From Neisseria sp. 83E34 (GTDB lineage: Bacteria > Pseudomonadota > Gammaproteobacteria > Burkholderiales > Neisseriaceae), in the NCBI RefSeq assembly GCF_001308015.1, contig NZ_LGYH01000002.1, forward strand, positions 186,001 to 250,000: a stretch of 64,000 nt of DNA, read 5' to 3'. The notes under the pieces were generated by a model that did not search any database, was not told the DNA's origin, and saw only the letters and a program-made list of their open reading frames with translations. Made by a program: the position numbers and the translations under genes. Shown piece by piece: positions 10,237 through 18,098 of the stretch. Position 1 is the first letter of the stretch. Every line of letters begins with the position of its first letter.

Positions 10237-11604
10237 TTATTGCGGCGGGGGCAGCAGGCACTCTACCAGCTTGTCGATTTCGTTCACATAATAGTCGGAT
10301 TTGGGGCTGTTTACCAACACGACGATCACCAGCGGATGCTTCGTTGAATGGTTGCGCGGCAGGTAATAGCCTGCGAGCGCGCGCACGTTTTTCAGGGTGC
10401 CGGTTTTGAGGTAAAGCTCGCCCTTGCGGCTTTTGAAGCGTTGCTCCAGTGTGCCGTCGGTGCCGGAAATGGGCAGGGTGTCGATAAATGCCTGTCTGAA
10501 ACGGCTTTCATAGGCTTTGGCCAGCAACTCGCCGAGAAAGCGGGCGGTCAGCCGTTCGCTGCGGGAGAGGCCTGAACCGTTTTCAAGAACCAGAGCTTCA
10601 TCGTCGAGGCCGGCTTTAACCAGCTCTTGGCGTACGGCGGCTTTGGCATTTTGACCTGTCTGATTGTCAGCGGCGCGTTGACCAATGGTAAGGAATACGG
10701 TGCGGGCGATGACGTTGTTGGACAGTTTGTTCATGCTGGTTAATGCTTCGCGCAAGGGTGGCGAGTGGTGCACGGCAAGCGTGTCGGCATCGGCCGGAAC
10801 GGTGCCGACGCGGTAGCCGGAAGCCATCCGGCCGCCTGCGGCATTCCATTGGTTGACAAAGCTTTTGGCGGCGAAGTCTTGCGTGTCGAGCATGTTGATA
10901 AAGGTTTCCTGGCCGATGCAGGCTTCGGGCAGCGTACCGCTCATGTGCAGCACTCCTTTTTCATATTTGGCGGAAAGGTAGCGTTTGAGCGAGCGGCAGG
11001 TGCCGGAGGCGGTGAAGCGTACTTGATTATTTTGCGCCACATCCGGTAGCGGCGGATTGGTGGTCATCACAGGCTGCCCGGCTTCATTGAACGCGGGCTT
11101 CAGCCATACGACTTTATAAGCCAGCATGTGCGGGTCGGGATTGGTGGTAAAGGCTTCGTTGGCGTCATCGTCGAAACCTTGTGCGGAGCCGGCATTGCCC
11201 CAGATGTTGCGGTCGAACACCAGTGAGCCGGTAATGTGTTTGATGCCTTTGTCGCGCAACTGTTGCTGAACGGCGATTAAATCATCTTGATCCATAATCG
11301 GATCGCCGCTGCCGATCCAGTAAATATCGCCATTCAGGCTGCCGTTGGCAATGGGTGCGGCCGATTTGAATTCAGTCTGCCAGCGGAAATCAGGCCCCAA
11401 CGCGCGGAGCGAAGCAAATGCCGTAACCAGCTTCATGGTGGACGCGGGGTTAAACGAAGCATCGGCCTGATGCGCGACCAGCACGGTTTTGGTATTCAAA
11501 TCTTGTACATAAACCGCCACTTCTTTCGCGGGAATCGTGCCGGTGTCGAGTGCGGATGCGGCAGCGGGCAGCAGGAGTAGGGCGGAAAGCAACAAGCGGC
11601 GCAT
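10237..11604 (-). CDS. dacB: D-alanyl-D-alanine carboxypeptidase/endopeptidase (PBP4 type)
   Basis: Periplasmic class-C penicillin-binding protein that trims or opens peptidoglycan cross-links. I start at the ATG at 11604 (MRRLLLSALLLLPAAASA), a clean signal peptide. An ATG at 11634 is possible, but its extra residues are encoded by a DUS (CLSEKR). The active-site triad is visible: SxxK in ASTMKLVTAF near residue 53, SNN in LSNNVIARTV near 300, and KTG in LYLKTGTLKNVRA near 410. The length of about 455 residues fits PBP4. The coding region carries a second internal DUS near 10488, encoding part of the RFRQAF segment. Confidence 0.92.
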   Translation of the reverse strand: MRRLLLSALLLLPAAASALDTGTIPAKEVAVYVQDLNTKTVLVAHQADASFNPASTMKLVTAFASLRALGPDFRWQTEFKSAAPIANGSLNGDIYWIGSGDPIMDQDDLIAVQQQLRDKGIKHITGSLVFDRNIWGNAGSAQGFDDDANEAFTTNPDPHMLAYKVVWLKPAFNEAGQPVMTTNPPLPDVAQNNQVRFTASGTCRSLKRYLSAKYEKGVLHMSGTLPEACIGQETFINMLDTQDFAAKSFVNQWNAAGGRMASGYRVGTVPADADTLAVHHSPPLREALTSMNKLSNNVIARTVFLTIGQRAADNQTGQNAKAAVRQELVKAGLDDEALVLENGSGLSRSERLTARFLGELLAKAYESRFRQAFIDTLPISGTDGTLEQRFKSRKGELYLKTGTLKNVRALAGYYLPRNHSTKHPLVIVVLVNSPKSDYYVNEIDKLVECLLPPPQ

Positions 11605-14235: not shown

Positions 14236-14691
14236 ATGCTTATGAAAAAATTAGAAGTGGTTCTATTGAGCCCGTCGGTTGTAAGTGGATTTATTTTGGC
14301 ATTATTAAATTCCATAAAGCCTTTTTCTTATGAGGAAAGAACCAGTCTGACCTGCTTGATAACATTAGGTATTATATTTTTATTAAGAAAAAAACTGATA
14401 CATATCTATAAGGAAAATACACGTACTTATTCTCTCTGGACGTTTGAATTTTACTCAGAAAAAACTACAAAAAAAATATTTGTATATAGTTATTTTGTAG
14501 TTTTATTCATTTTTATATCTGATTGGGTAGCTATTCCCAAGTTTTGTATATCTAATTTGGGAGAATATTTTATATATTATACAATTTTGCAGTTTTTAAG
14601 ATTGCTTTTCTTATCATATCTTGTTATGCATTTTATCACCGTAGATATCAAAAATCTCAAAGTTAGATCAAATGAAAATGGATGCTCGTGA
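14236..14691 (+). CDS. Unrecognised four-helix membrane protein, array copy 1 (full length)
   Basis: I do not recognise this family. It is the first and only apparently complete member of a tandem array with a period of about 480 bp. It is 151 residues if started at 14236 (MLMKKLEVV) or 149 from the ATG at 14242, the start shared by the other copies. Four hydrophobic segments are visible: SPSVVSGFILALLNSI, TCLITLGIIFLLRKK, YSYFVVLFIFISDWVAIP, and a long C-terminal run around YTILQFLRLLFLSYLVMH. Between helices 2 and 3 lies a charged loop with HIYKENTRTYSLW and FYSEKTTKK. It ends in a polar tail (KVRSNENGCS). Codon use is strongly AT-biased, unlike priA or recJ. Small multi-pass proteins duplicated beside a toxin remnant can be immunity proteins, but that is inference. 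Confidence 0.6.
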   Translation: MLMKKLEVVLLSPSVVSGFILALLNSIKPFSYEERTSLTCLITLGIIFLLRKKLIHIYKENTRTYSLWTFEFYSEKTTKKIFVYSYFVVLFIFISDWVAIPKFCISNLGEYFIYYTILQFLRLLFLSYLVMHFITVDIKNLKVRSNENGCS

Positions 14692-14721
14692 TTTATATGA
14701 TGAAGGGGAGATAAATATTTT

Positions 14722-15140
14722 ATGAAAAAAATAGAAACGGTTTTATTGGTGTCTTCCGTTATAAATGGATTGGTTTTGTCTGGATTAAATTTTATAAAGC
14801 TTTTTCGTATGCGGAAAGAATCGGCCTGACCTGCTTGATAACGGCAGGTACTGTATTTTTATTAAGAAAAAAACTGATACATATCTATAAAGAAAACACC
14901 CGCACTTATTCTCTTTGGACTTCTGAATTTTATTCAGGTAAATCGGTAAAGAAAATATTTGCACACAGTTATTTCTTTTTGTTGTTTGTTTTTGCATCAG
15001 ATTGGGTCTTCATTCCAAAGTTCCATATATCTAATTTTCTGGAATATTTTATATATTATACAATTTTACAATTTTGTCGGTTGTTTTGCCTATCGTATAT
15101 TTTTTTGCATTCATATCACCTTAAACATCAAAAGTCTTAA
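14722..15140 (+). pseudogene. Array copy 2, frameshifted
   Basis: The copy starts MKKIETVLLVSSVINGLVL but loses its frame near 14800 and stops at 14827. Compared with copies 1 and 3, AAAGCCTTTTTCG has become AAAGCTTTTTCG, a single-base deletion. After the slip the remainder (LLRKKLIHIYKENTRTYSLW and onward) is nearly identical to copy 3 down to HLKHQKS at 15140. The near identity of copies 2 and 3 over about 300 bp indicates recent duplication or gene conversion, with the deletion later still. Confidence 0.75.
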
Positions 15141-15202
15141 AGTTAGATAAAAATAAAAATGGATGTTCGTGATTTATGTGATGGAGTGAAAGCTAATATT
15201 TT

Positions 15203-15622
15203 ATGAAAAAAATAGAAACGGTTTTATTTGTGTCTTCCGTTATAAATGGATTGGTTTTGGCTATATTAGGTTCCATAAAGCCTTTTTCGTATGCGGAAAT
15301 AATCGGCCTGACCTGCTTGATAACGGTAGGTACTGTATTTTTATTAAGAAAAAAACTGATACATATCTATAAAGAAAACACCCGCACTTATTCTCTTTGG
15401 ACTTCTGAATTTTATTCAGGTAAATCGGTAAAGAAAATATTTGCACACAGTTATTTCTTTTTGTTGTTTGTTTTTGCATCAGATTGGGTCTTCATTCCAA
15501 AGTTCCATATATCTAATTTTCTGGAATATTTTATATATTATACAATTTTACAATTTTGTCGGTTGTTTTGCTTATCGTATATTTTTTTGCATTCATATCA
15601 CCTTAAACATCAAAAGTCTTAA
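15203..15622 (+). CDS. Unrecognised four-helix membrane protein, array copy 3
   Basis: 139 residues beginning MKKIETVLFVSSVINGLVLA, with the same four hydrophobic segments as copy 1 and the same HIYKENTRTYSLW loop. A one-base difference near codon 128 relative to copy 1 (TGCATTCATATCACC against TGCATTTTATCACC) changes the C-terminus to HSYHLKHQKS and drops the NENGCS tail, which survives untranslated in another frame. It may still be functional because all four helices are kept. A leader of about 30 bp (GATGGAGTGAAAGC and following) precedes it and is repeated before copy 4. Confidence 0.55.
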   Translation: MKKIETVLFVSSVINGLVLAILGSIKPFSYAEIIGLTCLITVGTVFLLRKKLIHIYKENTRTYSLWTSEFYSGKSVKKIFAHSYFFLLFVFASDWVFIPKFHISNFLEYFIYYTILQFCRLFCLSYIFLHSYHLKHQKS

Positions 15623-15691
15623 CATTAGATCAAATGAAAATGGATGCTCGTGATTTATGTGTTTATGTGATGGAGTGAAAGCTAATATTTT

Positions 15692-16100
15692 ATGAAGAAA
15701 ATAGAAACGGTTTTATTTAAACCTTCGGTTGCAAATGGATTGGTTTTGGCTGGATTAAATTTCATAAAGCCTTTTTCGTATGCGGAAAGGACGGGGTTAA
15801 CCTGTTTAATTACAGCAGTCATCATATTTATATTAAGAAAGGAAATAATACATACCTATAATGAAAACATTATTACCCAGCCTTTGTGGATTCTGGAGTC
15901 TTATTCAGGCAAATCAATAAAAAATATTGATAGGCATTTATTTTTTGTTGCTTTTTCTTTTTATCATTGAATGGATAATTATTCCTACAGTTGCAAATTT
16001 TTGATTTTTTAGAATACTTATATATTATACGGTTTTGCAGTTTTGTCGGTTGTTTGTGTCGTTGTATATTGTTTTACATTTTTACCACCTTAAGTGTTTA
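15692..16100 (+). pseudogene. Array copy 4, frameshifted and cut by the IS element
   Basis: It opens MKKIETVLFKPSVANGLVLA and is the most diverged copy. The frame breaks in a T-rich run near 15940 and stops at 15968. In the next frame the homologous continuation (LFIIEWIIIP, then after another stop IYYTVLQFCRLF) can still be followed. The similarity ends at 16100, exactly where the left terminal repeat of the IS1016-type element begins, so the insertion probably removed its 3' end. Confidence 0.7.
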
Positions 16101-16822
16101 AAAAAGGGGCTGAAGTAGATTAGCCCTAAATACCACACCAAAGCCGCAAAGTTTTAACTACTGCTTTGGTGTCCCGAAGTTAAAACGAAATTCACATTCC
16201 TTCAAGAACAACGGGAACGATTTACGGTCGATACCGTTGTATTTGCGCAGTACCTGTTTTGCCTGATTCCAAAAATTTTCGATACCGTTGATGTGGTTAT
16301 GACGGTCGGCAAACAGTTTGCTGTGGTTGATGCGGTGATGGGTAAAACCACTCACATCCAACACATCATAACTGCTCAGACAGTCCGTATAAACCATACT
16401 ATCCGGCATAATTTTCTTTGTAATAGCAGGCAATAAGATTTCCCGTTTGGCGTTTTCCGCCACTACGGTATACACCTTACCACCGCGTTTGAGGATACCG
16501 AAAACCGCTACTTTCCCTGCGGCACCCCCTAACACGTTTTCCTTTACGCTTACCGCCGAAATAGCTCTCATCCAATTCTATAGCGCCCTCAAAAACCTGA
16601 TCTGCTTCCAAAGCCAAATGATGGCTGATAACGAGACGGATTTTGTGGTAAAAGAGAATGGTCGTATTGGGCTGAATACCCAAGATATCGGTAGCAGAAC
16701 GTGCGGTTACTTCCAATACAAAATATTCAAGCAGTTTTCTTTGGACACTCTTCTTTGTTACAGTGTGTTATCTTCATTTTGGCAGCCTATCATGACTGCT
16801 AATCTACTTCAGCTCCTTTTTT
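16101..16822 (-). mobile_element. IS1016-type element (IS1595 family), decayed
   Basis: It is bounded by matching terminal inverted repeats: AAAAAGGGGCTGAAGTAGAT at 16101 and, inverted, ATCTACTTCAGCTCCTTTTT at 16802-16821, with one mismatch. The length of about 720 bp is typical of IS1016. It carries one transposase gene on the minus strand that is broken by frameshifts. I could not see a convincing 8-bp target duplication. Confidence 0.85.
16158..16777 (-). pseudogene. IS1016-type transposase, two frameshifts
   Basis: The reading starts at an ATG at 16777 (MKITHC), slips after about six codons, and continues as KKSVQRKLLEYFVLEVTARS with ILGIQPNTTILFYHKIR and the catalytic ELDESYFGGKRKGK. 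A second slip at a G-run near 16525 (GGGGG where GGGG is expected) moves it into the frame of GAAGKVAVFGILKRGGKVYT. It then runs to INGIENFWNQAKQVLRKYNG and FRFNFGTPKQ. It retains the DDE-type residues but cannot make a full protein, so the element is not autonomous. Confidence 0.85.
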
Positions 16823-17070
16823 AATTAGATGATTGATAGGTAGTAAGTGCATTAGATGGAGTCTGTTCATTAAGTTGATTGATTTTAAATTAAATAACTA
16901 ATGTAATTGAAAACCTTGAAATATTTGAATGGAATTTTTCAAAGTGTTATTCTTAAATCTTATAACTGAATTGATTAATTTTGGCAGAAAAAACAAATTT
17001 AAGTTGTATTGCATTTAAATTAGTCGAATTAAAGTTATATAAACTTTGTAATAAAAAACAGAGGCCTATT

Positions 17071-17316
17071 ATGTTGGTTTTCATGGGAGTGTTCTTATTG
17101 ATTTTATCCATTTTGTGGATGGGTGAACTCTATTCTAGAAGAAAAGAACGTGAATACGGTTATCCTAAAAATATTGAGACAGATCAGGATGTTGAATTCC
17201 TAATTTTGCAGAATGAAGAAATACTGGCTATGCGTTGTTACATGAGGATACATCGTGTTTCATTAAAAATAGCTAGAGATAAAGTTAGTGAAATTAAGAA
17301 ACAGTTAGTCAACTAA
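17071..17316 (+). CDS. Small single-pass membrane protein with an L7/L12-like tail
   Basis: 81 residues from the ATG at 17071 (MLVFMGVFLLILSILWMGEL), with AGAGG upstream. One transmembrane helix is followed by a basic stretch (YSRRKEREYGYP). A soluble tail around LILQNEEILAMRCYMRIHRV and SLKIARDKVSEIKKQL resembles the helix-turn pattern of the ribosomal L7/L12 C-terminal domain (I..G.KI.AIK.YR...G.SL.EAK..V). A TTG start at 16981 would lengthen it without gain. It ends 31 bp before the RTX remnant, so it may be an accessory or immunity gene for that protein. That role is inferred from position only. Confidence 0.5.
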   Translation: MLVFMGVFLLILSILWMGELYSRRKEREYGYPKNIETDQDVEFLILQNEEILAMRCYMRIHRVSLKIARDKVSEIKKQLVN

Positions 17317-17347: not shown

Positions 17348-18098
17348 ATGAGTTTTGGTAGTGATTTTAATAAATATTATAATCAAAATATGAAGGATAT
17401 GGGATTGCCACCAGTTACATCATTTTATGGGGGAGGAATTACATTAGGAGCGGGTTTAAAAAGTCTTGCTGATTTAACAAACAAATATGGTACCCGTGCG
17501 GTTTGAGTTTAAGGATAAAACCATTACTTTAGAGGAGTTTCGTCAGAACGGTTTAACCTTTACCGGTGCGGACAACGACGATACTTTAGATACTTGGGGT
17601 CATAAAAGTATTGTGTATGGTGGAAAAGGTAATGATGTTATTACTTCTTCGTCAGCCAATGATGTGTTAGACGGAGGAGAAGGAAACGATGTATTAAATA
17701 GTGGAAGCGGCGATGATACCTTAATCGGCGGAACCGGCAATGATAAGTTGGAAGGCGGTTATGGCAATGATACTTATATCTTTTCCAAAGGACATGGTCA
17801 GGATATTGTTAAGAATTACGCCAACCATTCGAAAGAGGACGACATTATCCGTTTCACTGATGTGGCATCGAATGAGGTGTCTTTCAGGAAGTCCGGTAAC
17901 GATTTGATTTTGTCGGGTTATAGTGCATCCGATTCCATAGAGGTACAGGGCTTTTTTATTGAGGGGGGAGACATCAATCGGTTTGAGTTTAAGGATAAAA
18001 CGGTAGTAAAGCCAAATTTACTGCAGTATGTTAATGCGGATAGTATCATTAATACCGTAGCTGCTTTTAAAAAGTTCGGTATTTCTGAAGTAATTTAG
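17348..18098 (+). pseudogene. RTX calcium-binding protein, collapsed remnant
   Basis: The original start at 17348 (MSFGSDFNKYYNQNMKDMG), with AAGGAG upstream, reads 52 codons and stops at 17504. From the same point a different frame encodes a C-terminal RTX module: RFEFKDKTITLEEF, nonapeptide repeats GGKGNDVI, GGEGNDVL, SGSGDDTL, GGTGNDKL and GGYGNDTY, then FSKGHGQDIVKNYA, a second RFEFKDKT and a C-terminal tail. The change of frame lies inside a 23-bp sequence (17499-17521) that recurs at 17979-18001, one 160-codon module later. This is what recombination between module repeats would leave after deleting the central part of a larger Frp-like protein. The downstream part alone spans 203 codons from an ATG at 17487. 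Confidence 0.75.

Follow-up and report, generated by a model that had tools for sequence, protein, structure and literature searches.

A tandem array of small membrane-protein genes between priA and recJ in Neisseria sp. 83E34, probably duplicated immunity genes of a polymorphic RTX toxin

The window, that is the whole stretch of 64,000 nucleotides analysed here (site G000:C12:186001-250000), lies within the 2.42-Mb genome of Neisseria sp. 83E34, which is closely related to Neisseria wadsworthii. Between priA (on the reverse strand) and recJ (on the forward strand) it carries four direct repeats in register, spaced by 479, 482 and 489 bp, which agrees with the four-copy tandem array with a period of 480-490 bp reported in a preliminary description of this DNA. 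The array was also correctly said to be richer in A+T than its neighbours, having 27-30% G+C compared to about 54-60% in priA and 50-61% in recJ. All four copies are on the forward strand. Copy 1 (14236-14691; delimited by its ORF, by repeat family D1 and by a relative in N. wadsworthii) is a complete open frame of 151 amino acids, as had been claimed, with an extra in-frame ATG at 14242, and copy 3 (15203-15622; ORF and repeats) is open over 139 amino acids. Copies 2 and 4 are both damaged, as described earlier: copy 2 (14722-15150; ORFs and repeats) is broken within its first third, with an open piece at 14835-15140 (101 amino acids), and copy 4 (15692-16097; ORFs, repeats and comparison with N. 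wadsworthii) is broken with an open piece at 15692-15970 (92 amino acids). Over 266 nt copies 1, 2 and 4 shared 75-78% identity with copy 3. The near identity over 300 bp previously noted for copies 2 and 3 was borne out (99% over 300 nt); these two are recent duplicates or have been homogenised. A scan for regulatory signals found 13 promoter-like sites, fewer than in shuffled sequences (mean 17.1), and 4 terminator-like sites, compared to 1.7 in the shuffles.

At the end of copy 4 there is a decayed IS1595-family element on the reverse strand (16098-16824; identified by ORFs, repeats and Pfam/NCBIfam), with 27-bp terminal inverted repeats that are 96% complementary and a transposase frame in two overlapping pieces (16158-16571 and 16477-16716). 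Beyond it, on the forward strand, an ORF of 81 amino acids with one transmembrane segment (17071-17316; found by ORF and relatives search) lies directly before the remnant of an RTX gene (17348-18098; ORFs and Pfam/NCBIfam), which persists as two open pieces (17348-17506 and 17487-18098), the second of them containing RTX repeats. It is possible that the 81-amino-acid ORF is the immunity gene of the remnant's own toxin, and it may be a housekeeping-like small membrane gene that was recruited beside the toxin. Repeat comparison showed a 23-bp exact direct repeat within the remnant, with forward-strand arms at 17499-17521 and 17979-18001, which suits a past deletion or duplication there. Relatives of the 81-amino-acid ORF were seen in 4 other genomes of 83, at 32-41% identity, and at three loci (L116, L117 and L119) they stand beside, or one gene from, ispF, two of the three having ispD on the other side (gene names assigned by eye).

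Among the open window copies and their open N. wadsworthii counterpart the NG86 dN/dS ratio was 0.22-0.37 over 132 codons, so the array ORFs are coding genes under purifying selection and not chance ORFs. Each open copy is predicted by hydropathy to encode a small membrane protein with four hydrophobic segments, whose positive charge falls mostly in the N-terminus, the central loop and the C-terminus, a distribution which suggests an N-in/C-in topology. An AlphaFold model built from four sequences was all-helical with four long helices but of low confidence (mean pLDDT 54.8) and, like the single-sequence model of the RTX N-terminus of N. wadsworthii (pLDDT 37.8), is not taken as evidence of fold.

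Searches with the array protein against Pfam, NCBIfam, PADLOC and PHROGs gave weak or sub-threshold matches only, none of them convincing, in line with the earlier statement that no family is recognised. Pfam Na_H_antiporter and NCBIfam CCC_membrane (E 0.02, far below cut-off) and the profile of the CRISPR-associated Csx18 (E 0.005, sub-threshold) were considered and rejected. The array profile A2 had 0 matches among all PDB chain sequences at E up to 10, and hence no similarity to the solved FrpD; there was likewise no lipoprotein signal peptide, as by inspection copies 1 and 3 have their first cysteine only at residue 38, numbering from MKK, too far in for a lipobox. Immunity proteins of pore-forming colicins have three or four inner-membrane helices, and the array protein matched no curated family model of theirs, Pfam and NCBIfam returning only sub-threshold unrelated families. 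No relatives were found on plasmids or viral contigs.

Neisseria wadsworthii has the same priA-recJ site, with flanking DNA 90-92% identical on both sides, and an array there of one open copy (141 amino acids) and one broken copy. In this locus (L014) the array homology ends at 10497 and an RTX ORF of 1012 amino acids begins at 10514 on the same strand, after a gap of 16 bp; it ends before recJ and, with part of it reading N, is intact as far as readable. The preliminary description had proposed looking in related Neisseria for the copy number and for an intact toxin gene beside the array; N. wadsworthii has two copies, adjoining an RTX ORF that is open as far as it can be read. The last 550 residues of the RTX protein contain RTX repeats and an RTX-associated C-terminal domain, above Pfam cut-offs, and the first 272 residues, which gave no family match, include a hydrophobic alanine-/glycine-rich stretch around residues 120-190. 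In the window, the decayed IS, the 81-amino-acid ORF and the RTX remnant stand where this toxin would be. The start of the remnant differs from that of the N. wadsworthii RTX gene, and with this other N-terminus the array's presumed toxin is taken to be absent from the window.

In both species the copy nearest to the RTX gene or the IS is broken and the open copy lies further upstream, and the closest match of window copy 4 is the second N. wadsworthii copy, which is broken as well (91% DNA identity). When compared in 50-column blocks, the first half of the open N. wadsworthii copy was closest to window copy 1 (98, 98, 80, 94 and 92%), and in the second half copies 2 and 3 were 89-100% identical to it compared to 62-88% for copy 1, so unequal exchange between tandem copies seems to account for the difference between the arrays of the two species. 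At its end the open N. wadsworthii copy resembles copy 3, and the C-terminus of copy 3 therefore looks to be the usual one and copy 1 the odd one; the "shifted C-terminus" attributed earlier to copy 3 is not upheld.

Across 149 relatives (E up to 0.01) the array family had five matches, namely the window genome, N. wadsworthii (G031, a strong match) and three at chance level, and G048, G110 and G065 were rejected as relatives (E 0.001-0.009, 27-31% identity, in longer frames of 252, 218 and 414 amino acids). The 83 Neisseriaceae genomes yielded three matching genomes, the same two and G008, which was rejected, its two matches (E 0.009) falling in a phage-like region which, from its ORFs, we take to be that of a filamentous phage. 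In 369 genomes of the class there were two matches, the window genome and one at chance level (G464; E 7e-4), which was rejected as it runs across stops, and a scan of genome contigs found a single locus, in Neisseria wadsworthii 9715. By these searches the family appears to be convincingly confined to 2 of the 83 Neisseriaceae genomes, the window genome and N. wadsworthii, and as the only other genome with a strong match has an RTX gene 16 bp beyond its array, the array is not widespread away from toxin genes. Among 30 recJ loci, examined with 1.5-kb flanks, priA was within the flank only in G038, about 100 bp away and with no insert; in the other 29, which include the window and N. wadsworthii, priA was not within 1.5 kb and so not close. 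A further RTX gene (2137 amino acids) was seen directly before recJ in G005 (L067:5345-12083), with a different membrane partner upstream and, beyond that, different genes.

Of the 83 Neisseriaceae genomes, 38 matched the RTX C-terminal region (E up to 1e-20) and 1 matched the RTX N-terminus of N. wadsworthii; the one match of this N-terminus in the 369 class genomes, in G203, was rejected (E 1e-3, 25% identity, no RTX gene adjoining). Genes upstream of RTX genes were surveyed in 41 RTX regions (L014, 20 in a first batch and 20 in a second) chosen among the matches listed. The automatic scan took N-termini preceding a shared DPxxLDLDG-type motif, which 14 of the 41 regions, L014 included, do not have, and with 5 short or start-less cases set aside 30 N-termini were used. 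A partner was defined as a same-strand ORF of 55-330 amino acids ending -40 to +150 bp before the RTX start, and was called polytopic if it had two or more hydrophobic segments; the controls were 87 other large ORFs in the same regions, for which a simpler rule was used to call the starts. The cut-offs for hydropathy date from after the first batch, and one script scanned both batches together.

A small same-strand upstream ORF was present at 23 of the 30 RTX N-termini (17/20 in the first batch and 6/10 in the second) compared to 27 of the 87 controls (Fisher p 3e-5), and a polytopic one at 13/30 compared to 2/87 (Fisher p 1.5e-7), although these and the following p-values overstate the evidence, given the relatedness of many loci and cut-offs that were fixed only after the first batch. 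Seven of the 30 had no nearby small ORF (L137 is at a contig end), 4 of these being in the second batch (n=10). Among N-termini with a partner, those that were hydrophobic (peak KD at least 1.0) had a polytopic partner in 12 of 14 cases, or in 13 of 15 with L014 added by hand (p 5e-4), and those that were hydrophilic (below 0.6) in 1 of 9 (L082; p 7e-4), the remaining partners of the hydrophilic class being lipoprotein-like, with one N-terminal segment, or soluble. The second batch alone, with partners at 6 of 10, gave polytopic partners for 4/4 hydrophobic and 0/2 hydrophilic N-termini. There were exceptions: L082 goes against the hydropathy rule, and at L063 and in one gene of L071 just one segment was called. 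The partner at L141 may be part of an RTX gene that is split.

N-termini were compared up to the shared motif, since a fixed length of 300 residues was misleading in that it included the shared domain; L014, L079, L081 and L065, which lack the motif, were cut at 272 residues, and L079 and L081 retain some of the shared domain. In 4 locus pairs the upstream proteins resembled each other, and all of these pairs also had similar N-termini over 150 amino acids or more, but three of these pairs are among L078-L080, leaving two independent cases. Conversely, 10 locus pairs had N-termini similar over 130 amino acids or more, with upstream similarity in 4 and none in 6; this would be accounted for by immunity genes diverging faster, as reported for CDI ionophore toxins (PMC11630599), or by swapping. 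The upstream gene is also tandemly duplicated at L078, L079, L081 and L066 (53-97% identity). Pfam searches with ten upstream proteins and a set of N-termini gave only sub-threshold matches besides the RTX repeats, and among PDB sequences the upstream proteins of L066, L074 and L064 had no match and those of L071 only two chance-level ones; a lipoprotein-like L078 protein of 272 amino acids was rejected as a relative of FrpD, having no match there either. Two marks of a polymorphic system were thus found, in that the RTX C-terminal region of the 38 genomes stands behind N-termini of which many are unrelated, and that a small variable gene adjoins 23 of the 30 N-termini surveyed (27/87 in controls).

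At the RTX loci of the window genome that were read among the matches listed (the window, L063 and L066) the RTX gene is broken in 3/3 and the small upstream gene open in 3/3, and at those of N. wadsworthii (L014, L064 and L065) the RTX gene is open as far as readable in 3/3; draft assembly errors could contribute to the breakage in the window genome. That genome has a type I exporter gene set, with an LssB-type ABC protein and an HlyD-type adaptor above cut-offs and a TolC-like protein below its cut-off. In N. wadsworthii there is an ABC exporter whose start is C39-like, together with an adaptor gene (L129:6236-9606), which looked by eye like a microcin exporter; G005 has this exporter too, while in the window genome the best match to the HlyB model is a different transporter. 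At L077 (5573-6239, minus strand, fetched in reverse) a short RTX-like cassette fragment and a membrane protein of 144 amino acids lie upstream of an RTX gene and its polytopic partner, an arrangement resembling the toxin-cassette banks of other polymorphic systems; the 144-amino-acid protein had no detectable relatedness to the array (probability 0.3%).

We consider it probable, from these sequence comparisons, that the array genes are duplicates conferring immunity to a membrane-acting, type-I-secreted, polymorphic RTX antibacterial toxin, and that they have outlived it. This is supported by the linkage to an RTX gene, the conservation of the protein, the class of partner tracking the class of N-terminus, and the presence of exporter genes, and the earlier suggestion of immunity-like membrane genes beside a toxin remnant gains from the N. 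wadsworthii linkage and the wider survey, with the immunity function itself still putative. The RTX toxin would be exported by type I secretion, and its variable N-terminal domain, with its long hydrophobic stretch, would enter the envelope of a competitor, insert in the inner membrane and disturb it. The four-helix protein would bind that domain in the membrane and so block the toxin in the producer and its kin, and unequal exchange would shuffle the tandem copies, broadening or shifting their specificity. In the window genome the toxin would have been lost, decayed or replaced, with the array persisting as orphan immunity or itself decaying. The array would then belong with the polymorphic toxin/immunity systems, apparently outside the FrpD and colicin-immunity families.

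Being encoded together with an RTX gene would also be expected of a protein that assists RTX export, anchoring or surface display, such as a helper or membrane chaperone, and FrpD, another upstream partner, has been described as an anchor in the outer membrane that is involved in adhesion (PMC5472700, PMC5233953). An export accessory should be conserved, however, and the upstream partners fall into many unrelated kinds whereas the RTX C-terminus, which the exporter should read, is shared; furthermore, with the RTX gene broken there is no need to retain several copies of a helper, and so we regard such an accessory role as unlikely.

It is rather improbable, too, that the array is a functionless relic, its copies being drifting duplicates from a lost mobile or toxin module: two of the four copies are broken, an IS is at the array end and the RTX gene is a remnant, but copies 1 and 3 are open and the dN/dS among them and N. 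wadsworthii is 0.22-0.37, although such past constraint is compatible with a recent loss of function. Chance adjacency, with the array genes serving something unrelated to RTX such as phage defence or ion transport, could draw on the antiporter-family match (E 0.02) and the Csx18 profile (E 0.005), but these sub-threshold matches are far below use and polytopic upstream ORFs are at 13/30 RTX loci compared to 2/87 controls, making this very improbable.

With the array read as immunity genes, there are parallels in several known systems. Pore-forming colicins are matched by a small membrane immunity protein that guards against a membrane-inserting toxin domain, as is proposed for the array. The same proposal likens it to immunity to CDI ionophore toxins, whose immunity proteins diverge strongly (PMC11630599), but here the toxin domain would be the RTX N-terminus and not the CdiA C-terminus, the immunity gene comes first and there is no family match. 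As in FrpD/FrpC of N. meningitidis, from the frpDC operon and with an affinity near 0.2 nM (PMC5233953), and in Smlt3025/Smlt3024 of Stenotrophomonas, where a protein of FrpD topology neutralises a T4SS effector that resembles RTX N-termini (PMC6759196), a small gene is encoded with an RTX or RTX-N-terminus-like protein; FrpD, however, is an outer-membrane lipoprotein whereas the array protein is predicted to be polytopic and is in tandem copies. The Cdz system of Caulobacter, a glycine-zipper killer, shares type I secretion and a small transmembrane immunity protein with three predicted segments, but CdzC/D are proteins of 84-86 amino acids and not large RTX proteins (PMC5380434). MafB/MafI and TpsA/TpsI, from the same genus, are likewise polymorphic toxins with cassettes and immunity genes, but have C-terminal toxin domains and other secretion routes (PMC5472700).

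RTX toxins are named as type I cargo in a survey of polymorphic toxins (PMC3482391), and FrpC/FrpD has already been proposed as a type I antibacterial effector/immunity pair (PMC6759196). In the open-licence PMC literature we found no report of polytopic immunity or of a general N-terminal pattern for Neisseriaceae RTX proteins, and no description of these as a polymorphic system with upstream membrane immunity. On balance we are inclined to think that the FrpC-like RTX proteins across Neisseriaceae are generally polymorphic antibacterial toxins with interchangeable N-terminal warheads and the immunity gene first, in which membrane-inserting warheads would be paired with polytopic immunity and soluble ones with lipoprotein-like or soluble immunity, and arrays would be banks that persist after toxin loss.

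The variability of the N-terminal ~350 residues of FrpC-like proteins has been ascribed to possible immune pressure, with adhesion as the role (PMC5472700), and the FrpC-like RTX proteins of Neisseria have no clear part in virulence, their mutants having shown no attenuation (PMC5472700, PMC6759196). A variable N-terminus coupled to a variable upstream gene, of membrane type where the N-terminus is hydrophobic, offers a direct alternative to immune pressure, namely that these are self/non-self weapons between bacteria. The role of the FrpC-like proteins thus becomes testable by co-expression and competition, and the array would add a putative, previously undescribed family of immunity proteins.
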